A stretch of DNA of 64,000 bases from an uncultured Pseudomonadales bacterium (lineage in GTDB: Bacteria > Pseudomonadota > Gammaproteobacteria > Pseudomonadales > Azotimanducaceae): assembly GCA_958296295.1 (NCBI GenBank), contig OY282460.1, forward strand, positions 744,001 through 808,000, given 5' to 3'. The translations under genes were made by a program, and so were the position numbers. The notes below the pieces were generated by a model. The model was not told the origin of the DNA. It saw only the letters and a program-made list of their open reading frames with translations, and did not search any database. How positions within the stretch are numbered: position 1 is the stretch's first letter; each line of letters opens with the position of its first letter. Of the stretch, positions 8,856 to 54,390 are shown piece after piece.

Positions 8856-9692
8856 TCAATCGCGCAACAGCTCGTTGATGGAGGTTTTGGCGCGGGTGCG
8901 CTCGTCCACACGCTTGATGATCACGGCGCAATAGAGGCCGGGCCGCGCCACGCCATCCTCGCCAACGCCGCCCGGCAGGGCGCCCGCCACCACCACCGAG
9001 TAGGCCGGCACGCGGCCTTGGAACACCTCGCCGGTGAAGCGATCGACGATCTTCGTGGAGGCGCCGATGAAGACGCCCATGCCGAGCACCGCGCCTTCTT
9101 CCACGATTACGCCCTCCACCACTTCCGAACGGGCGCCGATGAAGCAGTTGTCCTCCACGATCACCGGCGCCGCCTGCAACGGTTCGAGCACGCCGCCGAT
9201 GCCGGCGCCGCCGGAAATGTGGCAGTTCTCGCCGATCTGCGCGCAGGAGCCGACTGTGGCCCAAGTGTCCACCATCGTGCCCTTGCCCACATACGCGCCG
9301 ATGTTTACGAAGCTGGGCATCAGCACTACCGAGGGCGCGATGTGCGCGGCGTGTCGGACGATGGCGCCTGGCACGGCGCGAAAACCGGCGGCCCGAAACC
9401 GCGCCGCGTCCCAACCTTGGAACTTGGACGGCACTTTGTCCCACCAGCAAGCGCCGCCCGGCCCGCAGGGCACGACTTCGGAGTCGTTGAGCGCGAAACT
9501 CAGCAACACGGCTTTTTTCAGCCATTCGTGAACTATCCAGGTGCCGCCGATTTTCTCCGCCACCCGCGCTTCGCCGTTGTCCAAGGCCCCGAGCGCGGCG
9601 CGCACCGCCTCGCGTACCGGCCCTTGGGTGTCTGGGCGCAATTCGCCGCGCTGTTCCCAAGCGGCGTCGATAATGTTTCGCGAATCTCGCAT
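8856..9692 (-). CDS. dapD: 2,3,4,5-tetrahydropyridine-2,6-dicarboxylate N-succinyltransferase
   Basis: The 278-residue protein is close to the 274-residue E. coli DapD. An N-terminal helical domain (1-100) ends in [13 protein letters not shown], followed by a left-handed beta-helix of hexapeptide repeats (about 105-240) with conserved [10 protein letters not shown] and [11 protein letters not shown] segments. It succinylates tetrahydrodipicolinate in the succinylase branch of lysine and diaminopimelate synthesis. It sits between catabolic-looking oxidoreductase genes rather than with dapE or dapC, an unusual location. Confidence 0.95.
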
Positions 9693-9702
9693 TTGGTTGC
9701 CG

Positions 9703-10698: not shown

Positions 10699-10740
10699 AC
10701 TTTGGGTATCTCCCCTTGCCAGTGTCGCCTGCTTGACACT

Positions 10741-18186: not shown

Positions 18187-18243
18187 CGCCTCGTCAAGTT
18201 GTCCGAGGGAGGTAAGTCCCGCGAGTGTACTGGTTCGTGGCGT

Positions 18244-19290: not shown

Positions 19291-19416
19291 GGGCTCAACT
19301 CGGTGCGGGGGCGCAACGCGGAAACGGTGCGCCTCCGGCCTTGACCGGCCGGGCCGGAAGCAACCGCAAGTGGTTCATTGAGCGGGGAGGCCCCGTCGTT
19401 TCCCGGCAAAAACGGT

Positions 19417-19890
19417 TCAGCCTTGCGCGGCGTTGAGCGCGTCCAACACCTTGTCTGGGTGATCCGCCGCCTTGGCCACGCGCCGCCAGTGCTTGACCAC
19501 TTTCCCGTCCGGCCCCACCAGCACCGTGGACCGGATTACGCCCATGGTCTTCTTGCCGTACATCATCTTCTCGCCGTACGCGCCGTACTTCGTCATCACG
19601 TTGCGGTCGGGGTCGCAAAGCAGCGTGAACGGCAACCCGTACTTGTCGCGGAACTTGCGATGCGATTCCTCCTTGTCTGGCGAGATGCCAAGCACCACGG
19701 CGTTGGCGTCTTGCAGCGCCTGCCAGTGGTCGCGAAAGCCGCAGGCCTCCTTGGTGCAGCCCGGCGTGTCGTCCCGCGGGTAGAAATAGACCACAACGTG
19801 TTGGCCCCGCAAATCCTTGAGGGCCACCTTGTTGCCGTCCGCGTCCGTTAGCGTGAAAAGTGGTGCTGCTTTTCCTTCTTCAACTGCCAT
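19417..19890 (-). CDS. bcp: Thioredoxin-dependent peroxiredoxin, Bcp/PrxQ type
   Basis: The 157-residue protein has the AhpC/TSA fold. Peroxidatic C45 lies in P-R-D-D-T-P-G-C-T-K-E-A-C and the resolving cysteine is C50, the five-residue spacing typical of Bcp. It reduces hydroperoxides with thioredoxin. AGGAG lies 8 nt before the ATG at 19890. A short GC-rich inverted repeat (CGGGG/CCCCG at 19383-19395) lies just past the stop and could act as a weak terminator. Confidence 0.93.
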   Translation of the reverse strand: MAVEEGKAAPLFTLTDADGNKVALKDLRGQHVVVYFYPRDDTPGCTKEACGFRDHWQALQDANAVVLGISPDKEESHRKFRDKYGLPFTLLCDPDRNVMTKYGAYGEKMMYGKKTMGVIRSTVLVGPDGKVVKHWRRVAKAADHPDKVLDALNAAQG

Positions 19891-19952
19891 TTCTTAACTC
19901 CTGTTGCCTTGAGATTTGGTGAGCTTTTTCGCTGGTCAGCGCCGTGCGCACG

Positions 19953-21263
19953 CTACTCGTACCGTTTGCGAATGTCCGCGAGGCCAGCGTCCAGCTCGGC
20001 GCGGTCGAGATAGCGGCCGCGGACCATTACGCCGACGACTTCACGCGTGGCCGCGATGTTCGCCAGCGGGTCGGCGGCGAGCACCAGACAATCCGCGTCC
20101 AGGCCGGGCGCGATGGCGCCCCAAGTTTGCTCTTGGCCATAGAAACGCGCCGGTGCCGTGGTGCCGGTGATGATCGCTTCGAATGGCGTGAGGCCGGCGG
20201 CCACCATTGCCGCCAGCTCGCGGTGAATCGAGAAACCGGGGACGTTGAATATCTGCGGCGAGTCCGAGCCGAGCAGGATCGGCACGCCGCCCCGGAACGC
20301 CGCGGCGATCAGCCGTTTGCGCAAATCCAGGAACTTCGTCGCGGCGTCCGCATCGAAACCGCCCACGGCGCGCGCATAGCCAATCCGCAAATTGCGCGGC
20401 AGATAGGCGTTTTCCTCGCGCGCCTGCAAATCCGAGAGTTTGGCGGAGACATTCTCCAGCAACGTCTCGGTGGGCACCACAGCGGCGCCCGCGGTGCGCA
20501 GGGCGGCGACCATCGCCGGGATGCGCCGTTCGTCGACGAAGGGAACGAGGTCCGCGCCGAACCAAGAGGGACGGCGATTCTCCAGACGTTCCGGCGCAAC
20601 CAAGGTCTCGAGGAAACCGTCCAGGTGATCAATGGTGTGTTGGCCGGCTTTCAAGCTGGCGAACAAGCCCACCGATTCGGTGACATGTCCAGCAAAACGG
20701 ATGCCCTCGGCGTTTGCGGCCTCTGCAACAGCTTGGAACACGTCGGCGGACATGCCCGGATGGATCTTCAGAAAATCGTAACCGGCGGCTTTCTGATCGC
20801 GCACGCGTTGCGCTGCGGCTTGCGCGTCTCGAGCGCTGCCGCCGCTGAACGAAGGGCCTGATGTCACCAACGCCGGCCCCAGCACTTCGTGACGAGCCAA
20901 GGCGCCGCGCAATTCCAGATGCGAAGGATGGCCGAGCATCCCCCGCGCCCGGGTGACGCCGTTCGCGACCCACAGGAACAGAACGTCTTCGCGGTAGCCG
21001 GGGACGTCGAGCCGCTGCGTCGGCACATGGGCGTGCATCTCCGCGAGCCCCGGCAGGACGTAACTGCCGCCCAGATCGATTCTGCGCGCATCCGGCGCGG
21101 GCTCGCCTTCCGCGAACCGGCCGTCGCGCACGAGAAGCGCGCCGCGGCTGTACTCCGGGCCGTCGCGCATTGTCAGGACAAGGGCGTTCTCGAGCACCAC
21201 ATCGGCGGCTGCCGCCGACACCCCCAGCACCGCCACGGCGAACGCTGCCCAAGCCGGCTTCAT
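19953..21263 (-). CDS. Exported amidohydrolase, imidazolonepropionase-like
   Basis: The 436-residue protein starts at the ATG at 21263 behind AGGAGG. The first ~20 residues are a signal peptide (K-P-A-W then an Ala/Val core ending A-A-A-A-D). The amidohydrolase metal site is M-H-A-H (H77, H79), with later histidines in F-A-G-H-V-T-E and T-I-D-H-L-D-G and the aspartate in L-L-G-S-D-S-P-Q. This branch includes imidazolonepropionase-like and prolidase-like exported hydrolases; the substrate is unknown. It lies 62 bp upstream of bcp. Confidence 0.85.
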   Translation of the reverse strand: MKPAWAAFAVAVLGVSAAAADVVLENALVLTMRDGPEYSRGALLVRDGRFAEGEPAPDARRIDLGGSYVLPGLAEMHAHVPTQRLDVPGYREDVLFLWVANGVTRARGMLGHPSHLELRGALARHEVLGPALVTSGPSFSGGSARDAQAAAQRVRDQKAAGYDFLKIHPGMSADVFQAVAEAANAEGIRFAGHVTESVGLFASLKAGQHTIDHLDGFLETLVAPERLENRRPSWFGADLVPFVDERRIPAMVAALRTAGAAVVPTETLLENVSAKLSDLQAREENAYLPRNLRIGYARAVGGFDADAATKFLDLRKRLIAAAFRGGVPILLGSDSPQIFNVPGFSIHRELAAMVAAGLTPFEAIITGTTAPARFYGQEQTWGAIAPGLDADCLVLAADPLANIAATREVVGVMVRGRYLDRAELDAGLADIRKRYE

Positions 21264-21489
21264 ATCGGTTCGCCTCCTGCCAATTTCTCTCCCGGCGATG
21301 GCCAGCGCCATCGCCCCATGACCGCGCTTCGCCACAAAAGCAGCGCTGTCTCTGCGGCGCAGAGTCTTTAGCATAGCCTAGGCCGCGGCCTTGGCGACGC
21401 CGGCCGAATGCGCCCGTTCATCACGTCTTGGCGCAAGGGACTCTCTTGGGTCGCGGCGCGAACAGAGGCGCATCCGCAGGCCGTGCCGG

Positions 21490-22395
21490 CTACTTCCAGA
21501 TCGAGAAGAACTCCTCGAAGGCTTGGAATTGGCCGCCGCGGGTGGATGACGGCACGATGATCGGCGTTCGCACGCCGGCGTCGATCCAAGCTTCGATGCC
21601 GGCGCGCACTTGCGCCGCGCTGCCGAACAACGTGGTGTCGGCCAGCCAGCGGTCGGAGAGGCAACGCGCCACGCCGTCGAAATCCTTGGCCGCCAACGCG
21701 GCCTCCACGGCGGCCATCTCGTGGGCGTAGCCGGCTTCCTTCCAGTACGCGCGGTAGTTCGGCAAAGCCGCGTAGCGGGCGAGCGTGCGGCGGTTGCGCG
21801 CTTTCGCGGCAACCATGTCGTCGTCCACCACCGTGGGGATCATGTTGGCGATGAGAAACTCTGGATCGGCCCGGGTGTCCGCGCCAAGCACCGCCAGAGA
21901 ATCGGCCATGTGCGAGCGTGCCGCGTTGGCGAACACGATGCCGCCGGCGATCTCCTCGGCGAGCCGGATCATGCGCTTGCGCAACGTCGCGAGCACGATT
22001 CGGGGCAACTCGCCGACGCGCGGCACGGAGGCCAGGTTTTCCACGAACCGGCGCATGTCGCCGAGCGGCTTGCCGGTGACCACGCCGAGCGGTTGCATGG
22101 ACGGCGCGTGGCTGACGCCGACGCCGAAGTCGAAGCGCCCGCCGGACACCTCGTGGATGAAGCTGGCCGCCTGCGCGAAGTCCTGGACGTTGCGCGTGTA
22201 AATGGGCGCGATGCTGGTGCCGAAGCGCACGCGCTCCGTCACATGCGCCAAGGCGGCGCAGAGCGAAATGCCGTCGCCCGGGCTGGGGCAGTAGATCGCC
22301 GGGAAGCCGCGCGCTTCGATGTCGCGCGCCAGTTGCAGCGTTGCGCCTCGGCGTCCGTGTACGGCTACGAGGCTCAGAGCGGGAAGTTGCGTCAT
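21490..22395 (-). CDS. LLM-class flavin-dependent oxidoreductase
   Basis: The 301-residue luciferase-like monooxygenase family protein starts at the ATG at 22395. The conserved A-R-D-I-E-A-R-G-F, T-S-I-A-P-I-Y-T-R-N and S-G-G-R-F-D-F-G-V-G-V-S segments support an F420- or FMN-dependent TIM barrel. The substrate is not evident. The C-terminal region with T-L-F-G-S-A-A-Q-V-R is typical of the family. Confidence 0.85.
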   Translation of the reverse strand: MTQLPALSLVAVHGRRGATLQLARDIEARGFPAIYCPSPGDGISLCAALAHVTERVRFGTSIAPIYTRNVQDFAQAASFIHEVSGGRFDFGVGVSHAPSMQPLGVVTGKPLGDMRRFVENLASVPRVGELPRIVLATLRKRMIRLAEEIAGGIVFANAARSHMADSLAVLGADTRADPEFLIANMIPTVVDDDMVAAKARNRRTLARYAALPNYRAYWKEAGYAHEMAAVEAALAAKDFDGVARCLSDRWLADTTLFGSAAQVRAGIEAWIDAGVRTPIIVPSSTRGGQFQAFEEFFSIWK

Positions 22396-22924
22396 GGCGA
22401 AGCGGCCTTCGGCTGGTGGTTCGTTAGGGAAGTATGTCCTGACTACAGTGGCGCGCGACTTTTCCGTCTTTGCCGCCTCAAGACGTCGTGGTTCTCGCCG
22501 AACAGGCTCTCGGCGAACTGCCGGCAACCGCGAAGGCCAGAGGCGTCAGTCGGCCTTCTCGAAGAACAGAAGGTAGCCTTCGCCGAACGTCCAAAGCCCC
22601 AGGGTGCAGACGAGGACGGCGAGCGAGACGAGACGCATGAAGAGGTTCTGGCCGGCCAGCCCCGCCGTGGCGGTCAACCGCCATCCTTCGAGAGCCTGTT
22701 GCTCGACTTCATGGCCAAGCGTCCTTTTTGGGGTTGGTCGCAAGGGCGCCAAGCAAGCCGCCGGCGACGGTCTTTCGGATCACTCTCGCTTGCATGTGAA
22801 CGCCTTTGATCGCGTCATGTCGTTGGCCAGTGTATCAATCCCGCTCTTGCCGCATGTATGTCAATTGACCAATCGGCCCGCGTCTTCTTTGCGGTGCCGG
22901 TGCGCGTCGGGTACCGTTCGCGGC
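22396..22924. other. Divergent intergenic region with a possible small membrane ORF
   Basis: This 529-bp stretch lies between the LLM oxidoreductase and the uracil-DNA glycosylase. A minus-strand frame ending at 22546 (ATG at 22638, 30 codons; open further upstream to 22752) encodes one hydrophobic segment, L-V-S-L-A-V-L-V-C-T-L-G-L-W-T-F, followed by a charged tail, as in a one-helix membrane peptide. It has no clear SD and may be chance or a gene relic. The promoters of both flanking genes must lie here. Confidence 0.3.
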
Positions 22925-23659
22925 ATGTCCAGTGCGGGCGTTGGCGATCTGGTGGCGATTCAACGCCGGCTTCGGGATGGCGTGGACGCGCTCTCGTTCG
23001 GGCCGCCGGTCACCCACGTTTACAACCCGTTGCGCTACGCTTGGCGAACTGCGGAGGTTTACCTGCGCAGATACGGGCGTGCGCCCACGCGAGTCCTGTT
23101 CCTTGGCATGAATCCGGGGCCGTGGGGCATGGCGCAAACCGGCGTGCCGTTCGGCGATGCCGTCGTCGTGCGCGACTGGCTTCGCATCCCCATTGTGGTT
23201 GATCGCCCGGCGCGCCCGCATCCGCGGCGTCCGGTGCTGGGGGCGGATTGCGTTCGCCGCGAAGTGAGCGGGAAGCGGTTCTGGGGCTGGGCGCGGGAAC
23301 GGTTCGGCACGCCCGAAGCGTTTTTCCGGCACTTCGCAGTGATCAACTACTGCCCGCTCCTTTTCCTCGTGCCGGGTAGCGGTGATGGCGCTCGCAACCG
23401 TACGCCGGACCAGCTTCCGGCGGCGGAAAGAAAAGCGCTCTTTCGGCTCTGCGATGACGCGCTCGCAGCCAGTTGCGAAGCGCTGTCGCCGGACCTGGTG
23501 ATAGGCGTTGGCGAATTCGCCTTTAGCCGCGCCCGGGCCGCTTTGCCGAGCAGCGTTCGCGTTGGGAAAATACTGCACCCGAGCCCGCGCAGCCCGCAAG
23601 CCAATCGAGATTGGCTTGCGGGCAAAGCGGAAGGCCAACTGCGGGAACTGGGCGTGTGA
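22925..23659 (+). CDS. SMUG1-type single-strand-selective uracil-DNA glycosylase
   Basis: The 244-residue protein (human SMUG1 is 270) has the family motif 1 G-M-N-P-G-P-W-G-M-A-Q-T-G-V-P-F-G at 61-77 with the water-activating Asn, and motif 2 H-P-S-P-R-S-P near the C-terminus with the intercalating-loop histidine. It excises uracil and oxidised pyrimidines from DNA, starting base-excision repair. The ATG at 22925 is the best start by length, although the frame is open upstream. The gene contains a perfect 32-nt inverted repeat near its 3' end. Confidence 0.9.
   Translation: MSSAGVGDLVAIQRRLRDGVDALSFGPPVTHVYNPLRYAWRTAEVYLRRYGRAPTRVLFLGMNPGPWGMAQTGVPFGDAVVVRDWLRIPIVVDRPARPHPRRPVLGADCVRREVSGKRFWGWARERFGTPEAFFRHFAVINYCPLLFLVPGSGDGARNRTPDQLPAAERKALFRLCDDALAASCEALSPDLVIGVGEFAFSRARAALPSSVRVGKILHPSPRSPQANRDWLAGKAEGQLRELGV
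23592..23623. repeat. Perfect 15-bp inverted repeat inside the SMUG1 gene
   Basis: The arms 23592-23606 and 23609-23623 are exactly complementary (15 bp) around a 2-nt centre, and would form a very stable hairpin in mRNA or single-stranded DNA. It lies in the conserved HPSPxSPxAN-coding region, 36 nt before the stop codon. Confidence 0.9.
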
Positions 23660-23757
23660 CTTTCTTGCATGCGTAATGCTTGCGAATCAACGCGAGGCCG
23701 GTGTCGTTGGGACTTTAGCCGCGCATAGGAATCGGTGCCAAGCGCTTCACGCCCTTT

Positions 23758-24828
23758 TCACGGCGATGCCGCCAACTCGTCGAGCGCGGCCACCAGGGCG
23801 TTGTTTTCGTTCGGCGCGCCCACGGTGACGCGCAGGCAGTCGCGCAAACGCGGCGTGTCGAAGTGGCGAACCAGAATGCCGCGCTTGCGAAGCCCGGTTT
23901 GCAGCGTCGCCGCGTTGGGTGTTCTCGCGAGCAGGAAGTTGGCCTCGGAGTCCGGCACCGCGAATCCGCGCGAGCGCAGGTTGGCGGCCAAGCGGCCACG
24001 CTCGGCGCGAACGCGGGCGCATAGCTCGGCGGCATACCGCCGGTCGCGCAACGCGGCCGCCGCCACGGCTTGGGCGATGGCGTCCACGTTGTAGCTGTCG
24101 CGCGTCTTGGTGAGAACCGGGGCGATGAGCGCCGCGTCGCCGATGAGAAAACCCACGCGGAGGCCGGCCAGCGCGTAGCCTTTGGAAAGGGTGCGCAACA
24201 ACAGCAGATTCGGGTGCGCGACGACCAGTGGCGCGAGGTTGTGGCGGCGGTTTGGATTGACGAAGTCCACATACGCCTCGTCCACCAGCAGCACGCCGTC
24301 GAGCGCCGAGGCAAGCGTCGATACGAAGTCCGCGTCGAGCAAAACGCCGGAAGGCGCGTGCGGATTGACCAGGCATGTCAGCTTCGCGCCGGCGTCGTTC
24401 AACCGCTTGGCGGTGTCCGTTGGCGGTTTCCAATCCGCGTCGAGCGGCACGGTGCGCATGCGGCAGTCTTGCGCGGCGCCGAGCACGGGCATCAACGAAT
24501 ACGCCGGTTCGGCGAGGCCCAGCGTTGCGCCGGGATCCACGAATGTCGCCAACGCCAGCCGCAACGCTTCGTCGCCGCCGTTGGCGGCCACCACGTTGTC
24601 CATTTCCACGCCAAGCTGCTCGGCGAACTCGCCGCGCAGGGGATCCGCGGTTGCCGGCGGATAGCGCCGCAACGTGTCGACGTCGAACGCGGCCAGCGCT
24701 TCGCGCACAGCCGGGGACGGCGGGTACGGGTTTTCGTTGGTGTTGAGCTTGATGACGGCGGGATCGGCGGGTTGTTCTCCATAGACGTAACCCGCCATGC
24801 GGCGGATGTTCTCGCGCTCGTAGCTCAC
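23758..24828 (-). CDS. hisC: Histidinol-phosphate aminotransferase
   Basis: The 356-residue fold-type I PLP enzyme has L-N-T-N-E-N-P-Y-P-P (substrate phosphate region), L-V-N-P-H-A-P-S-G, the V-D-E-A-Y-V-D-F aspartate and the PLP lysine in T-L-S-K-G-Y-A-L-A-G-L-R. It converts imidazole-acetol phosphate to histidinol phosphate. The start is placed at the GTG at 24828, which overlaps the stop of the AI-2E transporter gene (GTGA); this gives the R-E-N-I-R-R-M-A-G-Y N-terminus usual for HisC. It is the last gene of a long minus-strand run. No other his genes are near. Confidence 0.9.
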   Translation of the reverse strand: MSYERENIRRMAGYVYGEQPADPAVIKLNTNENPYPPSPAVREALAAFDVDTLRRYPPATADPLRGEFAEQLGVEMDNVVAANGGDEALRLALATFVDPGATLGLAEPAYSLMPVLGAAQDCRMRTVPLDADWKPPTDTAKRLNDAGAKLTCLVNPHAPSGVLLDADFVSTLASALDGVLLVDEAYVDFVNPNRRHNLAPLVVAHPNLLLLRTLSKGYALAGLRVGFLIGDAALIAPVLTKTRDSYNVDAIAQAVAAAALRDRRYAAELCARVRAERGRLAANLRSRGFAVPDSEANFLLARTPNAATLQTGLRKRGILVRHFDTPRLRDCLRVTVGAPNENNALVAALDELAASP

Positions 24829-43390: not shown

Positions 43391-43596
43391 GTTCGACCGA
43401 CTGCGGATATAGGTAGTCGGCCCTGTTGCGGCGCGGGGCTGTCGCACGCGCCACCGAGGCGTTCAATCTCCGCAGCGAGGGTCCCACGTTCAATAACTGT
43501 CACCCCGCCCGCCCGGTGCTGGCGCACCCCGTTCGCGTTGCAATGTATTGCACATGGTTGCTCGCTTGACGGGCGAAGCGTACCACCTCGATACCG

Positions 43597-43725
43597 CGAT
43601 TTTCGTGGCGCTCGCGCCTTAGAGTGATCGCAATGACGACGCCTCGGCAAACGACCCTCAATGTGCGTCCCAGCGAGCGTGTGGGGGACGTTCTGGATCG
43701 CATACGTCGCGAGGCTTCCAGCGAA
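43597..43725 (+). repeat. Left copy of a ~130-bp direct repeat (5' end of a restriction-helicase gene)
   Basis: This copy aligns with 50241-50375: both contain TTTCGTGGCGC, CGCGCCTTAGA and CCTCGGCAAACGACC, then the codons for V-R-P-S-E-R-V-G-D-V-L-D-R-I-R-R and S-S-E. Here the ATG at 43633 opens M-T-T-P-R-Q-T-T-L-N-V-R-P-S-E-R in frame, and the reading frame ends at a TAG at 43744. Homology stops abruptly after GCGAA in both copies. Confidence 0.85.
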
Positions 43726-43794
43726 TGGAGACACATACCGCGCTAGAGCGGTTCGTGGCCCCCCTAACGGGAAAGTCTGACGTGCACGATCAAA

Positions 43795-46700
43795 TCACCG
43801 ACGCGTAGCTGCCACCCGCTTGGCACCGAGGTGGAACCAGGACTCCATAGGCAACACCACCTCCAACCCTTGTAGCAGCGCGTCGAACTCATTTAGACCA
43901 TCGCTCGGCCGTGCCGGTAGTGCCCGCGCAAACTCGGTGAGCTTTTCGTCCAGCCAGTCCGTCCAATCATCCACCGTGCGGTGCGCCGCTGCGGCCCGCA
44001 GAAGCGGGGTCACCATCTGCGCCACATGCTCGGCCTTAGAAGCTCTTGGGGCCAGTCTTCCGACCACGACCGCCACTCCGTCTGCGACACACTCACTCCC
44101 CGCTGCCGCCGCAACAATGCTGGCTAGATGCAGCTGCGGCAACACATCATCAAATTCCGCCTCGCCTGCTCTTCCGGCTACATCTCGCAGACCCACACCA
44201 ATCTGCGCAAGGTGCCGCGCCTCAACTACCGACCACTGCGACCACCACGCGAGGGTGTTCAAAGCATCGAAGTAGTCCTCGCCGCACGACATCTCTGAGA
44301 CCTGGTCCGCAAGCCCCTCTGGCATCGGTTCCTGGGGCCGAAGATGCAACTCGCATGGCCCGGGCAACGCATGCCTTGGATTCGATGGCGCCCCGTCCGA
44401 ACGTGCTAATGCAGATTCGATCTCCTCACTCATCGGTACCTCGCATCCCGCCTTTTCGTGCCTTTGCTTCAGCAACCAGAGCCGCCCCAGAATCTCGCGA
44501 CGAAGGTTTCGGGCGCCCATCACATCGCTAATGAACAACGGCTCGTCACGAATGTCCGTTTGTCTCCGCAGGGCACCTTCCCATGTCGCGTTCGCCACAC
44601 ACGCCCTCTCTAGGGCGTCCACATCCAACGCTGCGCCGCGCCCAATCAACATCTGGGTCACCAACCCCGCCTGCATCCACGCGCACATCCGTCTCCAGTG
44701 GCCCGGGCAACTGGCGCCGCCTTCGATAGCGCTCAGCGAGTTCATCTCTAATTCGCACAGGACCTCGAACACCTTGTAGACGTCGCAGCCATCGACTCTC
44801 ATGGAGTCATCCAGAAGTGTCGCGATCGCATCGGCCGCAAACTCGCGGAAACGCTCTTGCCGAACTCGGTACAACGCAACATCTAGGGCACCGAGCAACG
44901 CGATCGGATTGCCATGCGCCTCCACCATCTGCAGCGCACCCCAAACCGCGTCGTCGTCGAACCCGATCAGCCACGCCCCCGGCGAGAGGTCGTCGCGCAA
45001 AGCACCAGAACAGCAAATGCTCAGGCCACCCGCCAAATCTCGTTCGAGCAACTCACGTCGATAGGGAATCAGTCGTTCGCGCAACCAAGCCTCTACGCCC
45101 GGGCTTTCCGGACGTGGTCCGCAAAACCGCTCCCAATACTCCAACGTCGGCGGCGCGACCTCGTCGAAAGTAGGAGACTTCCCGTGAGCGACCTTTTGGG
45201 CCAACCGGCCTTGCAGGGGGGCTACGCCGCTCGATAGTTCGTTGAACACCAAAGACATCTCATCTGGCGATAGCGAACGCACGGCCACCTGTTCGACTAG
45301 GCTCGAGGGCAAACGTGCCGTTGGGCCAAGACTATTCAAGATGTCCTTCAGCGTTTGCTGCCTTACTGTGCTGTCCTGACAGAGCAGGCCAAGCGCCGGC
45401 ATCGGCATGATGTGGCCAGTCCATTTCACACAGAGGGTCTCTCCGCCAGCCACTCTCTCAACTGTCGTCTGGACGCCAGATAGGTCGATGACTTGGACAC
45501 TCGCACTGCCTTCGAGCACGGCGCTCGCGGCCGCGATCAACTCATTCTCCGCCAACTGGACTTCGCCACCCTCGCCCCCTAGCCCAATCACGGACGAGTA
45601 GTGGAGGCCGCAGTCGCTTGCGAACGCCGGATCCATCCTGGCTACTTGGTCCCTCAGCGTCGCCGGTAGGCAATCGAGGAACACCTTGCCGACTAGCTCC
45701 CGATGCTCCTCAACGCTCGAAATCATCGAGAGAGCACGCCGCAGCGCATCTTCGACCATATCCGCGTTCGCTGGTCTCAGAGGACCGACAATACACCGTC
45801 CTACCCAAGTGCCGTACGCGGCGCGTCTCTCAGCCGACTGCATCATCGGTGGCACGAAGACGAGAGCGATCCGCCGAACAATCGAATCGCGATTTCCCTC
45901 GTCACGCCCACCCAATTCGGAACGCTTAAACAGATATGTGGTTGCCGCCAGATGGCACCATACCCACGTGCATAGAGCCTCAGCGACTTTGTCGTCGATT
46001 GACGTGTTCGCCCATAGCTCCCGGATCACTTGAGCGTTCACGAGCTGCATCGCAGCCGACAACTCCCACAACTCCCGCTCGTCGGCCAGCCAATTCGACT
46101 CTACAGTGTTTATGGTCTGTCGGATCGTCCGCAACTCGGGACTCTCGACCACCTCCCCGGCATCCACGCGCACATCCTCAAGCCAGTGACGCAGCTCGTC
46201 CGCGTCGACCGGTACAAATACGAATCCAGCGTCACGAAGCTCGTGCGTCGCAGTCCAACATTGCTCGTTGCTGATGACGTTTCGAGAGCGCAGATGCCTC
46301 AGCAGGTCCAGCACGCAAACCACCGGCACACTCGCTCCAGTCGGCCCCGCGCATGCCGGATGGCTGTTCATGTAGCGGTCGTCGACGCAGAGTGCCTGGC
46401 ACCGTTCGGCCGCCAGAACAAAACCTTCAAGAGAGGCGACACTCGCCACCCGTCCGATCTTTTCACGCCTGTCGGACAACTGTGGAAGTAGCGACACGGC
46501 ACCACATTCCATGCCTTTCCGCAGCACCGCGACCAGCCGCTCAACCTCGTTCGCAAGGTCGTCGCCCGCGTCGCCTGCTTCTACTAACGCGTTGGCCATG
46601 TCGCGCACGTTCGGATGCACCCGAATGTCCACCCCGTGACTCGTGATGACGTCCAATACGTGTGCTGACTGCAGGTACGAAAGCGCGGGTTCGTCAACGT

Positions 46701-49700
46701 ATACGGGGCCGTTGAGCATCGAGTCCGGCAGACTAGGCCGTGGTTCCTGGTCCTGGCTTGCCAAGAACCCCTTCGCCCTCTTGTACGTCTGGGCGTCGAC
46801 GAATCCCCGCTTGCGGGCCACTGCGCATAGGTCCGCTGGCGAGAAGATCAGGTCCTCGTAGGCCGACGTGTCCGCAAGCTCCTCCATCAACGAATGAGCC
46901 TTGTGTAGCGGCTCAACGCAAATCATGACGCCAGCCTCCTCACGGCAAGCCTCCAGCAGCATCGCTAGCTCAATCCCGAACTCCTCCACCGCTGCTGTGT
47001 TCGAGACGAACGCATCTTCAACGACGTTGATCCGATTCCGATCGAACAGGCGCCGTATCTGCTTGGCCTGCTGCACCAGCGCCGGTTGGTGAAACCGGAC
47101 CGCGTCCCTCTCCGCGTACAGGGTGGCCATCGCGTCGTGCGTGATCTCCACGTGACCGAGCGCATCGATCGTGGTCTCCAGCAGGCCCACATGCCCCAGC
47201 ACTAGGATGGATGTCAGGTCCAGGCCGACGGTCCATTGATCCTCCAGCTCCACCGGTCGCCGGACTCCCGACAAAATCGGTATGACGGGCCGTTCGCGCC
47301 CATTACGCCGTCCATCCAGCAACACCCGCGACAGTGGCAGGTTGAGCGTCCCGGCCGCTATGCCAATGGGCACGTCGCCTTTGAAGAGCATGTCAATGAT
47401 CCGCTCATTGCGCTCCCTCATCGCGGGCAGCCGCTGGTCGACGAGTTCCTTCAAGTCCGTGCGCCAGATCGGCCCCTCGTCCTCCGATGAGTGTTTCACC
47501 GCCTGCGCGAGCCACTCAGGATCAGCTTGGTCGTCGTGACCTAGCTCGAAGTGGAGTCCGTAGGCCGACGCCAGCACACCGGGATCTTCTGGAGCCTTTG
47601 CTGCTGCCAGAGCCGCCAGTTCGAGCGCACGTTCCGGTAGCTGGCCCGGGTGGCGCGCTACCCAGGCCAACATCATCAGCACGTCCGGCCCCAAATGCTG
47701 TCTCCGAGGCCACTCGCGCTCAACGACTCCCGTAAGCCTCCCCCAATCCCCCGCCGCGATCGCGAGTTGGACATCGAGCCTCAAGTCGTCGACGTTCGCC
47801 CTGCTGGTTAGAAGTCTTTCGTTGATCGCCCGCGCGTCGCTCAACCGACCCGCATGGAACAGCGCCCACGCTCGGGCCCCACAAATGTCCTTGTTCTGCT
47901 CGGCGAGGTTCGGGTACTCGTCTAGGAACATCAGAAGTGCCGCATGGTCCGCAGCCCGGTGACTCAGAAAAGCCACGAGCTCGTGCGCGTTGCCGATCGT
48001 TCGATCCAGTTCGAACAACTTGCGCAAGCGCTGGCCGAGTGCTCTCCGATCATCTACCTTCCTCAGGTGCGCGATTAAGTTCCGCAGATCCACAACGCTT
48101 CCGGACTTGAGATACAGTTCCTCGAGCTGACGCCGTGGATCGGTGCCTTCCTGCGCGTCCAATGCAGCGTTCATTCGCGCCACCATGGAAGGATCCAGAC
48201 GCGAACTTCGCGTCGAGATCCACTCCCGCGCCCGTTCAGTCTGCGCGTCACTTAGCAGAGCGTGGAACAGCATCGCCGTCGTCGTCGACTCCGGCAACAC
48301 CCGATCGAGACGCTCCATGTGGAGTTCGACATAACCCGCGAACTCGCCAGCGTCCATCGTCTGATCGTTAAGTAGGCATTCCGCTACGACTTCTGCATCG
48401 CTCATTCCGCCTAAGCGCCTGCTTTGCCGTAGTCGGGCGCACAGAGCACCGTCGTCGAACTCGATCCCGAAGGCCCACGCGAAGGCGATGTGATGAACGG
48501 CGTCCACGCCGTTCTTCATCCGGCTCTGTATCTCGTGGCGAGCCTCATCGTTCTCAGCCCGTATGGGACTCATGAGCCGAAGCCACAAACGCCAATCGTC
48601 GACTGTCGTGCTCAGATCCTTGTTCGCCCACGCTCCGAGATTTGTGCCGACATACTCGAAACATGCAGCCGCACGCTCTCGATGCTGCTCAGCCGCCGCG
48701 TCCACGCTCGGCCCGACGCCGAGATAGAACGGTATGCTGTCGAGCACGCCGCTACGGCGTTCCTCCGGCAGAAGAAACGCCGCGTTGACGGTCCCCTCAA
48801 CCAGTGCGACGCGGGGTTCCCAGCCGTGGTGTCGCTCCACTTCCCGCAGCCCGCGAGCTGCATCCTCCCACCGTCCGGCTCTCGCCATATGAACAGCCCA
48901 ATTTCCGCATCCCCCATGGGTGAAGTGCGTAGGCAGGTCAGTCGGGTCCACGTCTATACACCATGCCAGTGCCTCCGCTTCGCCGCAGAGTCGCGCCAGC
49001 AGACTGACAAACACGGTTCGACAGTCGGGATCGTCGACATCACGAATCAGCCGCATTGCCTCGTCTCCCTTGTCGCTGGTGGCGGCAATCCAAGCATCCA
49101 CCACCAACAGGCTTTCCTCTGTCTGCCTTTCGGAGAGACCCTTGCGAATACGCTGCGCGGTCGCCAAGCTCTCGGTCGTCGTAGCGCACAACCTTGCCGT
49201 CCAGTAACGCACCCTGTTCTTCAGCGCGTCTGTCGCACCTGCGAGTTCTCCGCCATCCTCCGTTTGCCGGTGAAGTTCCTGAATACGCTCGGTGGCTTGG
49301 CTTGGGTCGAACGTCCGTTGCGTAAGAATGTCCGAGAGTTCACTTTGGGCTTCTTTATCGTGCACGTGCTGCACCACCGGATCAAATCGCGGCCCACGTG
49401 CCACGTCGTCCAGCTTCGCCTCGATCCGCTTTACACCCTTGTCGACTTGTTGGATCATTCCGGCGGTCGCCCGTTCACTGTCGGGAATCGTCGCGATGTA
49501 ACCAGCGATCAGGACGGCAAGCACCACATCGATCGGTCCCTCTGCAAAGTGCTCGGCCTCTCCAGTCACGTCGGCGTAACACGCGCCCAACCGATTGCGA
49601 ATGCCCTGTCCATCATCCGCTGCCACTCCCATGACGTTCGCCTTGGCCAAGGCCATGAACCATTCCGGTACAGCGTCGCTACGCAACCATTTCTGCAACG

Positions 49701-49956
49701 CTGGCATCTTCAGGAAGTCCGGGGCCACGTAGGCCTGCTCCACTGCATCTAGAACCGACCGCCACCAGGCATCGTCCACTGGTCCAACCAGCCGTGCCCA
49801 CGTGCCGCGCAGGACCTCGCCCATCAGATCCGCGGGACCGGGGGAACCGCCAACGGCCGCCTTCCGTTCCGCCGACAGCACCCGGATGTGCCCGGCGGCT
49901 GCTTTTGCAAGTGGCAACAGTGGCTTGGCGGCGATGCCTAACAACTCTTCGGTCAT
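43795..49956 (-). CDS. Giant 2053-residue alpha-solenoid protein with embedded PIN-type nuclease modules
   Basis: A single intact frame starts at the ATG at 49956 with AGAAGGTGA upstream. Residues 1-190 are helical and end in a short coiled segment (I-Q-Q-V-D-K-G-V-K-R-I-E-A-K-L). About 200-880 is TPR-like helical repeat (many A-x-x-L/G-R-W-x-D-A patterns). Near 905-1010, G-L-D-L-T-S-I-L-V-L-G-H-V-G-L-L resembles a first, probably degenerate PIN fold. At about 1080-1275, P-V-Y-V-D-E-P-A-L-S-Y-L, A-L-C-V-D-D-R-Y (about 1181-1188) and V-C-V-L-D-L-L-R-H-L give a convincing PIN nuclease pattern. The last ~770 residues are helical with no recognised motif. No Walker A is found. Predicted cytoplasmic; I infer a defence RNase triggered through the solenoid, but function is unknown. 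Confidence 0.75.
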   Translation of the reverse strand: MTEELLGIAAKPLLPLAKAAAGHIRVLSAERKAAVGGSPGPADLMGEVLRGTWARLVGPVDDAWWRSVLDAVEQAYVAPDFLKMPALQKWLRSDAVPEWFMALAKANVMGVAADDGQGIRNRLGACYADVTGEAEHFAEGPIDVVLAVLIAGYIATIPDSERATAGMIQQVDKGVKRIEAKLDDVARGPRFDPVVQHVHDKEAQSELSDILTQRTFDPSQATERIQELHRQTEDGGELAGATDALKNRVRYWTARLCATTTESLATAQRIRKGLSERQTEESLLVVDAWIAATSDKGDEAMRLIRDVDDPDCRTVFVSLLARLCGEAEALAWCIDVDPTDLPTHFTHGGCGNWAVHMARAGRWEDAARGLREVERHHGWEPRVALVEGTVNAAFLLPEERRSGVLDSIPFYLGVGPSVDAAAEQHRERAAACFEYVGTNLGAWANKDLSTTVDDWRLWLRLMSPIRAENDEARHEIQSRMKNGVDAVHHIAFAWAFGIEFDDGALCARLRQSRRLGGMSDAEVVAECLLNDQTMDAGEFAGYVELHMERLDRVLPESTTTAMLFHALLSDAQTERAREWISTRSSRLDPSMVARMNAALDAQEGTDPRRQLEELYLKSGSVVDLRNLIAHLRKVDDRRALGQRLRKLFELDRTIGNAHELVAFLSHRAADHAALLMFLDEYPNLAEQNKDICGARAWALFHAGRLSDARAINERLLTSRANVDDLRLDVQLAIAAGDWGRLTGVVEREWPRRQHLGPDVLMMLAWVARHPGQLPERALELAALAAAKAPEDPGVLASAYGLHFELGHDDQADPEWLAQAVKHSSEDEGPIWRTDLKELVDQRLPAMRERNERIIDMLFKGDVPIGIAAGTLNLPLSRVLLDGRRNGRERPVIPILSGVRRPVELEDQWTVGLDLTSILVLGHVGLLETTIDALGHVEITHDAMATLYAERDAVRFHQPALVQQAKQIRRLFDRNRINVVEDAFVSNTAAVEEFGIELAMLLEACREEAGVMICVEPLHKAHSLMEELADTSAYEDLIFSPADLCAVARKRGFVDAQTYKRAKGFLASQDQEPRPSLPDSMLNGPVYVDEPALSYLQSAHVLDVITSHGVDIRVHPNVRDMANALVEAGDAGDDLANEVERLVAVLRKGMECGAVSLLPQLSDRREKIGRVASVASLEGFVLAAERCQALCVDDRYMNSHPACAGPTGASVPVVCVLDLLRHLRSRNVISNEQCWTATHELRDAGFVFVPVDADELRHWLEDVRVDAGEVVESPELRTIRQTINTVESNWLADERELWELSAAMQLVNAQVIRELWANTSIDDKVAEALCTWVWCHLAATTYLFKRSELGGRDEGNRDSIVRRIALVFVPPMMQSAERRAAYGTWVGRCIVGPLRPANADMVEDALRRALSMISSVEEHRELVGKVFLDCLPATLRDQVARMDPAFASDCGLHYSSVIGLGGEGGEVQLAENELIAAASAVLEGSASVQVIDLSGVQTTVERVAGGETLCVKWTGHIMPMPALGLLCQDSTVRQQTLKDILNSLGPTARLPSSLVEQVAVRSLSPDEMSLVFNELSSGVAPLQGRLAQKVAHGKSPTFDEVAPPTLEYWERFCGPRPESPGVEAWLRERLIPYRRELLERDLAGGLSICCSGALRDDLSPGAWLIGFDDDAVWGALQMVEAHGNPIALLGALDVALYRVRQERFREFAADAIATLLDDSMRVDGCDVYKVFEVLCELEMNSLSAIEGGASCPGHWRRMCAWMQAGLVTQMLIGRGAALDVDALERACVANATWEGALRRQTDIRDEPLFISDVMGARNLRREILGRLWLLKQRHEKAGCEVPMSEEIESALARSDGAPSNPRHALPGPCELHLRPQEPMPEGLADQVSEMSCGEDYFDALNTLAWWSQWSVVEARHLAQIGVGLRDVAGRAGEAEFDDVLPQLHLASIVAAAAGSECVADGVAVVVGRLAPRASKAEHVAQMVTPLLRAAAAHRTVDDWTDWLDEKLTEFARALPARPSDGLNEFDALLQGLEVVLPMESWFHLGAKRVAATRR

Positions 49957-50240
49957 GCATTCACCTTCTAATCACTACCGGTCCGTCCTAATGACAAACG
50001 TATTCTTGCGGCAGCGGTCGACCTGCCTGCGCACCGGCTTGCGTTTGGCAAGCATGGGCCGTCGTCCTTTCGTCCATCCATGTCCCATCATACGCTTGCG
50101 GGCAGTTAGCAGCTTCTCGTAGCGGTTCGACAGGGGTTGACCAGTCCCTCGAACAGATCGTGCTTCCAGTCCGAAGACCGGAGCCAACCTCGATAGGTAT
50201 TTTTGCACGTACGTGCCTGCCAGCGCCCACGGCGACGCGG
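49957..50240. other. Upstream region of the giant gene
   Basis: This stretch holds the promoter side of the 2053-residue gene and runs to the right copy of the direct repeat. A minus-strand frame (GTG at 50208 to 49975, 77 codons, very Arg/Lys-rich) lies 18 bp before the giant gene; it has no recognised homology and I do not call it a gene. A weak hairpin GCTTG/CAAGC occurs at 50028-50044. Confidence 0.35.
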
Positions 50241-50375
50241 CGACTTTCGTGGCGCCCGCGCCTTAGAATGACGCATGACCATGCGAACAACACCTCGGCA
50301 AACGACCTCGATGTGCGCCCCAGCGAGCGCGTGGGGGACGTTTTGGATCGGATCCGTCGCGACGCCTCCAGCGAA
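50241..50375 (+). repeat. Right copy of the ~130-bp direct repeat
   Basis: This is the second copy of the segment at 43597-43725, in the same orientation. Relative to the left copy it has an extra 6-7 nt near the start codon (ATGACCATGCGAACAACA) and lacks one C in ACGACC(C)TC. As a result, the ATG equivalent to the left copy's start (50275) is out of frame with the downstream domain. Confidence 0.85.
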
Positions 50376-50880
50376 GCCGAGAAGGGGCGCTGGTTCGAGC
50401 ATCTGTTTATGGCGACGGTGCGCGACAACGCCGAGTTCGACGTGGCGGAAATCTGGCCGTGGCGCGACTGGCCGGATCGCGAGCAGCTAACGGGCTTGGA
50501 CGGCCGCGACCACGGCATCGACCTCGTGGCGCGGCAGATGGACGGCGCGCTGGTCGCTGTTCAGTGCAAGTGCTACGCGGCAGACGCGGTGATCGGCAAG
50601 CGGCACATCGATAGCTTTCTGAACGAATCGGCACGTCCGGCGTTCGGGCTGCGTTGGATCGTCTCGACATCTACTTGGAACTCGGCCGCCGAACGCGCCA
50701 TCGCCGGCCGGCAACCCAGAATCGCCCGCATCGACTTCCTGGATTTCCTGGATCACGAAATCCGCGAACTCCAAAGGCCGGCGGAACGGTGTCACCCGAA
50801 GCCGCTTCAGCAGAAAGCCATCGACGCCGTATACGACGGCTTGGTTACGCAGGGCAACGATCGCGGCAAGCTGGTGGTTG
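50268..50880 (+). pseudogene. N-terminal fragment of an Mrr-type restriction helicase
   Basis: From an ATG at 50268 the frame encodes V-R-P-S-E-R-V-G-D-V-L-D-R-I-R-R, then G-R-W-F-E-H-L-F and a nuclease core with R-D-H-G-I-D-L-V-A and V-A-V-Q-C-K-C-Y, the D/Q-x-K pattern of Mrr-like PD-(D/E)XK domains. It continues to L-Q-Q-K-A-I-D-A-V-Y and stops resembling a helicase just before Walker A, where R-G-K-L-V-V joins transposase sequence. The helicase motor is absent. This is the beginning of a large DEAD/DEAH restriction protein destroyed by an ISAs1 element. Confidence 0.75.
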
Positions 50881-51241
50881 GGGAGCGCCGTCTCGCGGAT
50901 GGCACGGAGAGCGTCGACGCCCGCTACCACCCGCTCAGCGCACAGCCGGATGCCGAGCGCTTCGGACGGATCGTCCGATCCCACTCGGCGATCGAGAACA
51001 GCCTGCACTGGGTGCTCGACGTGTCTATGGACGAGGACCGGGCGCGCAACCGCAAGGGCAACGGCGCGGCCTGCCTGGCCGTGGTCCGGCGGCTGGCTCT
51101 GAACATCGCCCGGATGCATCCCGACAAGCGATCCATCCGCCGCAAGTTCTGCACGCGCAGCGAAAGCAGGAGTTCCTCATCGACATGATCCGCCGCATCC
51201 GCAGGGCGGGGTAGCCCCCGATCTCAAATGCGATTGCCCTG
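50881..51241 (+). mobile_element. 3' remnant of an ISAs1-family insertion sequence
   Basis: Fused in frame to the helicase fragment, this encodes the C-terminus of an ISAs1 transposase: S-A-Q-P-D-A-E-R-F-G-R-I-V-R-S-H, I-E-N-S-L-H-W-V-L-D-V-S-M-D-E-D-R-A-R-N-R-K and L-A-L-N-I-A-R. A frameshift near 51145 diverts the frame to a stop at 51188; the original end (E-F-L-I-D-M-I-R-R-I-R) lies in another frame up to about 51214. The terminal repeat probably ends at GCCCTG (51236-51241). The left end and the catalytic N-terminal part are missing. Confidence 0.75.
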
Positions 51242-51514
51242 AGTGCAGGCCGTCTTGGGAACTCGCAAAGCCCGGCACCGACGAGCGTGCTACGCTTGAG
51301 TACACCCAAAACCACTTGGCGGCTCACGGTGGCACTCCAACGCAGCGCCAAGGTGCATTCTTGGACGAATAGCTATGATCACATCTCCGCGCCTCAAGGA
51401 CTTAGCCAGTGAACAGCCATCAGGAAGCGAGGTACTAGCCCTCTCGCCAAAGAGGGTTTCACGGATCGAACCGCGTCCCGGTGGGGTCCCGATGCGGCAT
51501 CGAGGTTGGACACG
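51242..51514. other. Spacer between the ISAs1 remnant and the ATPase gene
   Basis: This 273-bp stretch should contain the promoter of the ATPase/DUF4276-like pair. A small hairpin CCCTCT/AGAGGG with a 6-nt loop lies at 51440-51457. A 47-codon frame (51375-51518) overlaps the ATPase ATG but has no SD. Confidence 0.35.
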
Positions 51515-51866
51515 ATGAGTGGCGCGCTACGTCGCGTATCGGTGGCCAACTACCGCTGCCTGCGGAACGTGGATGTTGAAATAGACCAGTTCCATGTGCT
51601 TGTTGGCGCGAATGGCAGTGGCAAGAGTGCGCTTTTCGATGTTCTTCTCTTTGTTCACGATCTGTTGATAGTTGGCCTAGACGCCGCGGTTGACCGGCGA
51701 ACAAGCAACTTCCGCGACTTGGTGTGGGGCCGCCCTGACGGCGACTTGGCGTTCAAGTTCTCCTTCGAGCTGGATGTGCCGGACAGCATCAGGGAGGAAA
51801 TACCTGGATCCTATGACCGATTTACTGTCTCTCTGCGTGTGCATGAAGTGAACAATGGTGACTTGA
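51515..51866 (+). pseudogene. 5' part of an AAA_21-type ATPase gene interrupted by an insertion sequence
   Basis: The ATG at 51515 (GAGG upstream) opens an ATPase: V-A-N-Y-R-C-L-R-N-V-D-V-E-I is the SMC/RecF-like N-terminal strand and G-A-N-G-S-G-K-S (31-38) is Walker A. The first 116 codons are intact up to the 4-bp target site TTGA; the frame then runs into the IS and stops at 51883. Removing the IS and one TTGA joins this exactly in frame to the 3' part at 53611, giving a 375-residue protein with Walker B and the H-switch. Confidence 0.85.
51863..51866 (+). repeat. Left target-site duplication TTGA
   Basis: TTGA directly precedes the left inverted repeat and recurs at 53611-53614 directly after the right one. 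Confidence 0.85.
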
Positions 51867-53610
51867 CCCTATTGTTGCATTAGGTTCGCCGATCTATAGG
51901 GCGAAAGCGGCGAGGTAGTCGTTCATCGTGGCCTCGGTCCTAGGGTCGCACATGATGGAAAGAACGGGTTTTCGCTGCGGGTGGAGGAAGCGGCCTGCGC
52001 GCAGCAGGAAGTCGTTGCGCATCGTGCGCAGCTGCTCGAAGTTCCAGAGCGGGGAGCGCTTGGCGTTGGCGCGGCGTTGCGGCGCGCGGGCGGCCATCTG
52101 GAGTTCTCTGGCGAGGTTGTGGGCGAGCATGGCGGCGAGCGCGAACAGGCGGTTGGCGGGTTCGCGGCGGGCGGGGACGTGGGACAGTCCGCACTGCGAT
52201 TTGAGTTCGGCGAACAGGGCCTCCTGGGCGCCGCGGCCGTCGTGGAACAGGGCGACGCGCCGGGCGCTCTGGCGCTTGTTGGTGACGACGGCCTTGAACT
52301 CGAAGCCGCGGGCGCGGGGTTCGAACAGGTCGAGCTGCAGAGGCCCCGGGCGGCGGATCGGCACGCGCCGGCGGATCACGACGACGCGGCGCCGGCTGGC
52401 CCAGCTGTTCGGCTTCCAGTCCGGCTCGAAGCACTCGACGTCCCGGCCGGCCTTGCGCCATCGGGTCCGGCTCTCGATCAGCCGCTTGAGCGCCGGGAAG
52501 CGCTCGAAGGGCACGGACACGGAGTAGTCGACGCGGCGCCGCTCGAACAGGCCGAGGATGTCCTCGCCGAAGAAGGCGCCGTCGGCGCGCGCCTCCAGCC
52601 GCGTTCCGGGCAGCGCGCCGCGCAGGCGGGCCAGCGTTTCGTCCATGAACTCCCGGGCTCCCGTGGAGTCGGCCACGTTGCCGGGGCGGTGCAGCACGTC
52701 CAGCACTTGGCTGGTCTGCGCCACGGTGGCGAACAGCGGCCAGTAGCTGCGCTGGCCCTTGCGCCGCGGGTTGTAGCCCGCCGCCGCGCCTTCCGCCCGC
52801 CGCCTCGTGCCCAGCACCGATCCGTCGAAGTCGACCGTCGCGCGCGCCGGGCGCAGCGCCCGCAGCCGCCCGACCACCAGTTCCCGGTTCGCCGCCCGCA
52901 CCTTGTCGACGCCGCGCCCGTCCATGCCGGCGAGCGCGCGGGAGACCGTCGACACGTCCGGCAGCCGCCGCAGGCCCACCGCGCGCCGCACCGCCTCGTC
53001 GTCGCGGTAGCGCGCCATGTCGCGCAGGCCGCGGCAGCCGAGCAGCAGGTGGACCACGAGCAGCAGCACGATGGCGTGCGGCGGATAGGCGCGCTCCGGC
53101 AGGTGCCGGAAGCACTGCCGCAGGCTCTCCTTCAGCCCCAGCCGGGCGAAAAGCCGCTGGAAGACCACCAGCCCGGCGTGCGACGTGAGGCGCTGCGCCT
53201 CGAACCGGATTTCCAGCGCCCGGTTCGCTTTTCCGCGCACGGCGTTCCTGCTAAGCTTCACTTCGGCGGCCTCCTTCGATGTTTGTTCAACAGCTTCCAT
53301 CGTACCAAGGGGGGCCGCCGCTTCCCAGATCGGCAGAACGATTCGGCATCGGTTTTCGAAAGAGCGAAAAGCGCCGTCGAAGCGGCGCCGCTTAGGCCAA
53401 CCGCCGGTGTGTTTGAGCGACACGCCGGAAAACCGCATGGGATCCAGTCGGGGCGAGTGCCGAATCGCCTTTGCCGAAGCGTCGTCGTCACGCCTTTCCT
53501 TGGCGTGCGACTACTCTTCCGCCGCCTCGTTTTCCGTTGGAGAATCCAGTTGTGACTCGCTATGCCTCCCATCCGAGGCGATAGATTGAGAATCTAATGC
53601 AACAATAGGG
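51867..53610 (-). mobile_element. Complete IS1380-family insertion sequence, 1744 bp
   Basis: It is bounded by perfect 17-bp inverted repeats starting CCCTATTGTTGCATTAG (51867-51883 and the complement of 53594-53610), with imperfect similarity continuing further in, and flanked by a 4-bp TTGA duplication as expected for IS1380. It carries one full-length transposase gene on the minus strand. Both ends and the gene are intact, so it appears recent and possibly active. Confidence 0.92.
51894..53300 (-). CDS. IS1380-family DDE transposase
   Basis: The 468-residue protein from the ATG at 53300 fits IS1380 transposases in length. The N-terminal region has the helical L-F-A-R-L-G-L-K-E-S-L-R segment. 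The DDE residues are placed in T-V-D-F-D-G-S-V-L-G (first Asp), R-A-D-G-A-F-F (second Asp) and A-Q-E-A-L-F-A-E-L-K (Glu), with N-R-L-F-A-L-A-A-M-L-A-H-N-L after the last. SD is poor; the frame is open to 53438. Confidence 0.9.
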   Translation of the reverse strand: MEAVEQTSKEAAEVKLSRNAVRGKANRALEIRFEAQRLTSHAGLVVFQRLFARLGLKESLRQCFRHLPERAYPPHAIVLLLVVHLLLGCRGLRDMARYRDDEAVRRAVGLRRLPDVSTVSRALAGMDGRGVDKVRAANRELVVGRLRALRPARATVDFDGSVLGTRRRAEGAAAGYNPRRKGQRSYWPLFATVAQTSQVLDVLHRPGNVADSTGAREFMDETLARLRGALPGTRLEARADGAFFGEDILGLFERRRVDYSVSVPFERFPALKRLIESRTRWRKAGRDVECFEPDWKPNSWASRRRVVVIRRRVPIRRPGPLQLDLFEPRARGFEFKAVVTNKRQSARRVALFHDGRGAQEALFAELKSQCGLSHVPARREPANRLFALAAMLAHNLARELQMAARAPQRRANAKRSPLWNFEQLRTMRNDFLLRAGRFLHPQRKPVLSIMCDPRTEATMNDYLAAFAL

Positions 53611-53614
53611 TTGA
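53611..53614 (+). repeat. Right target-site duplication TTGA
   Basis: This is the second copy of the 4-bp target site flanking the IS1380 element. Confidence 0.85.
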
Positions 53615-54390
53615 GTGCAAAGCTGAAAGCGAACCTCAAGCAAAGAGCCGGCCGAGAAGAGCCGAGCAGGAGCGATTTCGCGCCCGGTCTTTGGACGACG
53701 GAGATGAAGTTCGACTCTGCGAGCCCGTTCATGCAAGCGGTAGGTTTCGAACATCCGCTCGTCACTCGCCTTATCACAGAAATGTTCGTTCGGGTCAGAG
53801 AACTTACCCTTGAAAACCGCGTTCTTCGCAAAGCAAGTCGACCGCCAAGACTCGGGAGACCAACACCTGACAGTCATCTCCCTTGGGTCATTCTTGGACT
53901 CAGGCGCTACCCAGATCGCTACGACGCTTGGCTAGAGCACATACGCACAGCCGTCGCAGACTTCCGCGACATTCGCGTGAAGACCCGCGAGGACGACAGG
54001 CACAAGTATCTGGTTGCGGTCTTCGACGGTGGTATGGAGGTGCCTTCTTGGGCCATGTCCGACGGTACATTGCGACTGTTGGCGTTGACGATCATTGCGT
54101 ACTTGCCAGAGTATGGACGCGCCTACCTCATCGAGGAGCCAGAGAACGGCGTTCATCCGCTGGCCGTTGAGGCAGTCTATCGATCTCTTTCGTCCGCCTA
54201 CGGCTCGCAGGTGCTGATCGCCACGCACTCGCCTGTGCTCTTGGCCTGTACCGAGCCCAAGGAACTGTTGTGTTTCTCGAAGCGAGACGGCGAAACACAG
54301 ATCATTCGTGGCGACGAACATCCCCTTCTGGCTCACTGGCAAAGCGCCGCTGACGTCGACCTACTGTTTGCCTCGGATGTCCTAGGATAG
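53611..54390 (+). pseudogene. 3' part of the interrupted AAA_21-type ATPase gene
   Basis: Starting at the right TTGA, the frame resumes L-S-A-K-L-K-A-N-L-K and runs to a normal stop. It contains the ABC-like signature region M-S-D-G-T-L-R-L-L-A-L, Walker B Y-L-I-E-E-P-E-N-G-V-H-P and the switch A-T-H-S-P-V-L-L, all as in AAA_21/OLD-like ATPases. No secondary mutation is evident. The coding end is 7 bp before the DUF4276-like gene. Confidence 0.85.

Follow-up and report, generated by a model that had tools for sequence, protein, structure and literature searches.

The window analysed here (the whole stretch of 64,000 nucleotides) carries a minus-strand gene (43795..49956, stop included) for a giant TPR-HTH-double PIN protein of 2053 aa. 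With a probability of roughly 0.6, we read this protein as a variant of the TPR-PIN conflict family: a stand-alone sensor-RNase that would cleave RNA when triggered by infection, its activity and its role in defence both being predicted from sequence. The preliminary description had seen in it a new sensor-effector layout. This does not hold, since TPR-GreA/B-C-PIN, a TPR-PIN conflict system that has swappable N-terminal effectors and no STAND ATPase, was described in 2021 (Kaur et al., 2021; PMC8195603), and Pfam has the entry PF24407, titled "HTH upstream of double PIN", for the element preceding the PINs. The layout is thus not new; it is a distinct, little described variant of the TPR-PIN defence family, and literature searches on "double PIN" found no dedicated paper on the PF24407 architecture. 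Newly seen here are an Asp of the first PIN-like unit that never varies (D913) against a first-strand Asp of the second unit that does (D1088), and single-PIN relatives in which the halves carrying the conserved acids are joined.

Domain layout

All features of the protein are encoded on the minus strand, a point missed in the preliminary description. The N-terminal part contains a clade-specific helical N-domain (residues ~43–157; 49486..49830), followed by a linker of low confidence in the structure model (residues 163–189; 49390..49470). A TPR-like alpha solenoid spans residues ~193–830 (47467..49380), modelled for residues 193–410 and assigned from sequence and family alignment for the rest. 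The best PDB matches of the modelled part (residues 193–409/410) are TPR proteins with Z about 11, which agrees with the long TPR-like arrays claimed before. The solenoid is followed by an HTH element (PF24407, HTH_upst_double_PIN; residues 835–899; 47260..47454) found with an E-value of 9.3e-8 and 32.7 bits against a cut-off of 27, and with 43–77 bits in relatives. A motif scan for Walker A ([AG]xxxxGK[ST]) found none in the giant protein or in the proteins of 13 relatives, in line with the earlier statement that it is not a STAND ATPase.

The two ends of the protein had also been overlooked. By comparison with relatives, the N-terminal 190 residues fill a variable effector slot and the last 640 residues form a C-terminal module found elsewhere as a separate gene. 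This module B (residues ~1420–2053; 43798..45699) has no Pfam match over its ~640 residues. It is encoded by a separate downstream gene, overlapping or adjoining the first gene, in the relatives at loci L014, L016, L022, L023 and L032. As the two-gene form occurs at more than one place on the tree, fusion or fission has happened repeatedly.

Relatives and N-terminal domains

Relatives with TPR, HTH and PIN parts were found in Acidobacteria, Desulfobacterota, Armatimonadetes, Alphaproteobacteria and Cyanobacteria, with swapped N-termini. Outside the close clade, homology starts at about residue 160–240 or covers only the later part of the protein. The N-terminus is a caspase in the Leptolyngbya relative (L021; E 2e-10), a DUF676 esterase in the Agrobacterium relative (E 1e-5), a PNPase in L030 (PNP_UDP_1; E 8e-16), an HNH domain in L032 (HNH_2; E 6e-6) and a death-like domain in L031 (bDLD3; E 1.7e-26). 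The Rhizobium relative has a weak match to an Mrr-like nuclease (Mrr_cat; E 1e-3), and the Methylophaga relative has a hydrophobic segment which looks like a transmembrane segment by eye. This pattern follows the effector-adaptor logic given for TPR-GreA/B-C-PIN (Kaur et al., 2021; PMC8195603). At L031, a PNPase-bDLD3 gene (513–1703) overlaps the bDLD3-TPR-PIN giant gene (1675–7512), in which effector and sensor would be paired through a death-like domain.

The N-domain of the giant protein has no Pfam match and no PDB sequence match worth noting. Neither its own genome nor 398 genomes of the phylum gave a second protein with this domain, which was found only in the giant family. The idea that the N-domain is an adaptor for a separately encoded effector was therefore considered and set aside as unsupported here.

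The family is sparsely distributed. The giant protein was matched in 6 of 197 relatives searched and PF24407 in 4 of 299 genomes of the phylum, while searches of viral contigs and phage genomes gave no relatives.

Two PIN-like units

Secondary structure places two alpha/beta units after the HTH element. The PIN1-like unit comprises residues ~905–1070 (46747..47244) and has no DDR motif of the kind seen in the PIN2 unit (residues ~1080–1290; 46087..46719), which is of the PF20698 type by profile and family evidence. PF20698 represents the PIN domain found in the TPR-GreA/B-C-PIN proteins of Kaur et al. (2021; PMC8195603). In the giant protein it reaches 20.1 bits on the second unit, below the cut-off of 27.8, but a 57% identical relative scores 38.8 bits and the cut-off is passed in L009, L016, L021, L022 and L023. 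The profile matches at two places in the L023 and L032 proteins, and is matched over its full length and above cut-off by PIN2 of L009 and L023. The family profiles of PIN1 and PIN2 match each other with an E-value of 8.8e-8, and the units are thus probably a duplication.

From the Pfam matches and the secondary structure we infer a PIN fold for both units. Other searches gave no further indication of it. Foldseek and VIA with an 815-residue model listed only HEAT/ARM-like rows, with the helical region 367–628 filling the lists and no PIN fold listed. PDB profile searches with the PIN alignments found no relative, and hhalign of PIN1 or PIN2 against three TPR-PIN proteins of ~1100 aa matched the first strand only. 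The preliminary description had distinguished one convincing PIN domain from a weaker PIN-like one ahead of it. The profile evidence, stronger for the second unit, confirms that order of strength; the notion of one good and one weak PIN stands only in this respect, as the acidic residues point instead to a composite site.

Conserved acidic residues

The acidic residues were compared in an alignment of 21 proteins: 19 with two PINs and two (L030 and L031) with a single PIN. D913 (codon 47218..47220) is Asp in all 21, and no other column of the PIN1 alignment is invariant. The DDR motif of PIN2 (D1192-D1193-R1194; codons 46375..46383) is kept as D/E, D and R in every protein, D1192 being Glu in one of them and D1193 and R1194 being invariant. 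D1217 (codon 46306..46308) is D or E throughout. The PIN-type acids at strand ends (D913, D1192, D1193 and D/E1217) are thus kept in 20–21 of the 21 proteins and are spread over both units.

Among the 19 two-PIN proteins, eight (L011, L029, L027, L028 and four cyanobacterial members) have H, S, N, G or E in place of D1088, the first-strand Asp of PIN2, which the giant protein itself retains. L030 and L031 lack the middle part, and their single PIN consists of the D913 half joined to the DDR half. The distance from the first Asp to the DDR motif is 126–127 residues in these two proteins and 238–286 in the others, and the joined piece aligns to positions 2–133 of PF20698, below cut-off.

Since one of the acids that cannot be lost comes from PIN1 and the rest from PIN2, a single composite metal site is the simplest reading, and the alignment suggests an RNase site made up of D913 together with D1192, D1193 and D1217. 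Composite PINs are known from SMG5-SMG6, and PRORP1 has a similar set of acids (PMC12923823). As proposed for the giant protein, the PINs of SMG5-SMG6 are paralogous, one of them is incomplete and the acids are pooled in one site; the difference is that SMG5-SMG6 are two proteins of eukaryotic mRNA decay, whereas the giant protein is one chain whose composite site is predicted. A split PIN also occurs in the defence protein DS-3 of the DefensePredictor study, where the catalytic residues are needed for phage defence (PMC13092281). By its description DS-3 is alike in being a single protein with a PIN RNase built from separated pieces of sequence and no antitoxin, and it is thought to be auto-inhibited.

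We tentatively extend this to a switch, at odds clearly short of even. The RNase site would be split over the tandem PINs of one chain and would act as a nuclease only when the units meet, so that sensing by the solenoid could assemble the site without ATP, a second messenger or a protease. A competing possibility, which we hold to be somewhat unlikely, leaves the rest of the system unchanged but makes PIN2 alone the active RNase (D1088, D1192, D1193 and D1217), in which case PIN1 would be an inactive scaffold or would bind RNA, and D913 would be kept for folding. PIN2 could act alone in the giant protein, as D1088 is kept there and in most of its close relatives, and the PIN2 of L009 and L023 fits the whole of PF20698. 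Against this, eight members have lost D1088 whereas D913 never varies, and the single-PIN members retain the D913 half and not the D1088 half.

Proposed mechanism

In the sensor-RNase reading, the long TPR-like solenoid, probably together with the HTH element and module B, would sense that infection has altered a macromolecule of the host or the phage. As no NTPase is present, the switch is most likely one of binding or conformation. In the resting state the solenoid and its flanking modules would hold the PIN units in a closed or separated arrangement. Once the target is bound, the RNase would be unlocked, D913 of PIN1 and D1192/D1193/D1217 of PIN2 then forming one metal site, and the cleavage of RNA would halt phage production, probably at a cost to the cell. 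The clade-specific helical domain that fills the N-terminal slot here would add a further action, as an additional effector or as an adaptor. Should the split-site reading be true, the switch would be a simple one, with two half-sites approaching each other and neither antitoxin nor ATPase involved, and it would apply to a defence family that is large, widely transferred and uncharacterised.

Comparison with TPR-GreA/B-C-PIN

The giant protein is a member of PF24407, with the domain above cut-off directly ahead of the two PIN units, and does not differ from that architecture. With TPR-GreA/B-C-PIN (PMC8195603, Fig. 2K) the family shares the TPR core, a PF20698-type PIN, swappable N-terminal effectors or death-like/EAD adaptors, mostly stand-alone genes and the lack of a STAND NTPase. 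It differs in having two tandem PINs instead of one, the PF24407 HTH element ahead of them, an extra C-terminal module of ~640 aa and a length of about 2050 residues as opposed to about 1100.

For TPR-GreA/B-C-PIN, Kaur et al. (2021; PMC8195603) proposed an action on transcription complexes. By analogy, the giant protein might dock on RNA polymerase and cut phage transcripts while they are being made, the N-domain serving as a back-up killer, and the PIN type, the TPR part and the swappable N-terminus common to both systems would fit. We regard this as unlikely, as no GreA/B-C was found by Pfam in the giant protein and an HTH element stands in its place. The test is a weak one, since the PF20698 relatives of ~1100 aa at L035 and L041 also lack a match to the Gre Pfam family, and the structure search of this region was dominated by matches to the solenoid.

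Genomic neighbourhoods

The loci of relatives were inspected by hand, as single cases. Copies stand near restriction-modification (R-M) genes at several of them: beside MmeI R-M, ZacB-like and nSTAND3-TPR genes in L009, near Eco57I-type R-M and integrase-like genes in L010 and near a PstI-type R-M in L013. In L030, L029, L032 and L023 the copies follow the genes of other systems at 19–160 bp. These are type I R-M HsdS-HsdR (19 bp, L030), HmaB-HmaC (about 25 bp, L029), HmaC (directly behind, L032) and, on a Methylophaga plasmid, Wadjet-like genes (JetD-like to MksE) with the two-gene form right behind them (L023; 1968–13677). A congeneric species (G013; L033) has a decayed copy (8655–9158) between PglZ (5528–7861) and BrxL (9213–11267) of a BREX locus. 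The ends of this remnant are 87% and 84% identical in DNA, about 5.7 kb of the middle is deleted and there is a frameshift.

The relatives thus adjoin R-M, Hma, Wadjet-like, BREX and nSTAND genes, which upholds the defence context proposed before; their loci differ. In the window, the giant gene shares no operon with a second intact system.

PrrC and RloC are anticodon nucleases that guard, or are linked to, a restriction operon. They resemble the giant protein in this link between an RNase and restriction, but PrrC has an ATPase and its nuclease fold is unrelated to PIN. The giant protein could in the same manner guard a partner system (R-M, Hma, Wadjet or BREX) and fire when that system is inhibited. 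The copies immediately downstream of type I R-M, Hma and Wadjet-like genes, and the one inside BREX in L033, speak for such a guard. We nevertheless consider it rather improbable: the partner systems are unrelated to one another, many copies stand alone, the one in the window included, and a common operon may reflect mere co-transfer. If the split site is real, the recurring position behind R-M, Hma, Wadjet and BREX genes, together with the modular N-terminus (caspase, nucleases, PNPase and death-like domain), would help in asking whether these sensors detect the phage or the failure of a neighbour.

Further genes were noted at three of the loci. Beside the closest full-length relative, L009 encodes a ZacB-like PLD protein and an nSTAND3-TPR protein with an LmuA-like N-terminus (17681–24661). 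On a Leptolyngbya plasmid, a multi-ubiquitin and ThiF cluster shortly precedes the caspase-TPR-double PIN gene (L021; 1–10008). A Ppl-like gene adjoins the decayed copy in L033.

Intactness of the gene and decay of the island

The frame runs from an ATG through 2053 codons to its stop with zero internal stops, as had been reported, and a frame of this length at 61% G+C cannot have stayed open by chance. Homologues aligned over the full length (57, 45, 44, 44, 35 and 32–33% identity) are all free of stops, and in L016 and L014 the homologous stretch is open as two genes. Compared with the 57% identical relative, the differences at codon positions 1, 2 and 3 are 0.31, 0.235 and 0.558, which indicates purifying selection on the giant gene. 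Both lines of evidence support the selection that the preliminary description had supposed. The gene is present as a single copy in its own 4.33-Mb genome.

The surroundings are wrecked, as described earlier. A 5' fragment of an Mrr-type nuclease/helicase gene lies on both sides of the giant gene, with 82–89% DNA identity between the copies: a truncated one at 43583..43735 and a longer one (Mrr_cat_2; 50227..51188), fused to transposase debris, both on the plus strand. An AAA_21 ATPase gene is split by an IS into two pieces (51506–51883 and 53611–54390), and the fragment adjoining galU matches IS110-like transposases from other loci. In a partial empty-site comparison with 1.5 kb flanks, glmU-galU is kept across the genus without the island there.

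That the giant protein is a housekeeping RNA-processing protein, or its frame a chance survivor in a dying island, is highly improbable: the adjoining genes are indeed broken and G013 keeps a remnant only, but the distribution is patchy in both searches given above, the loci differ, the codon pattern is purifying and the neighbours are defence genes.

Two minus-strand ORFs (49988–50518 and 50487–51119) were first taken as operon partners of the giant gene. They were rejected because they have no homologues beside the relatives and are antisense to the Mrr-type gene fragment. The IS within the ATPase gene (51863–53614) looks complete: it has an IS1380-like DDE_Tnp_1_4 transposase, its terminal inverted repeats are good, and the duplicated target is TTGA.
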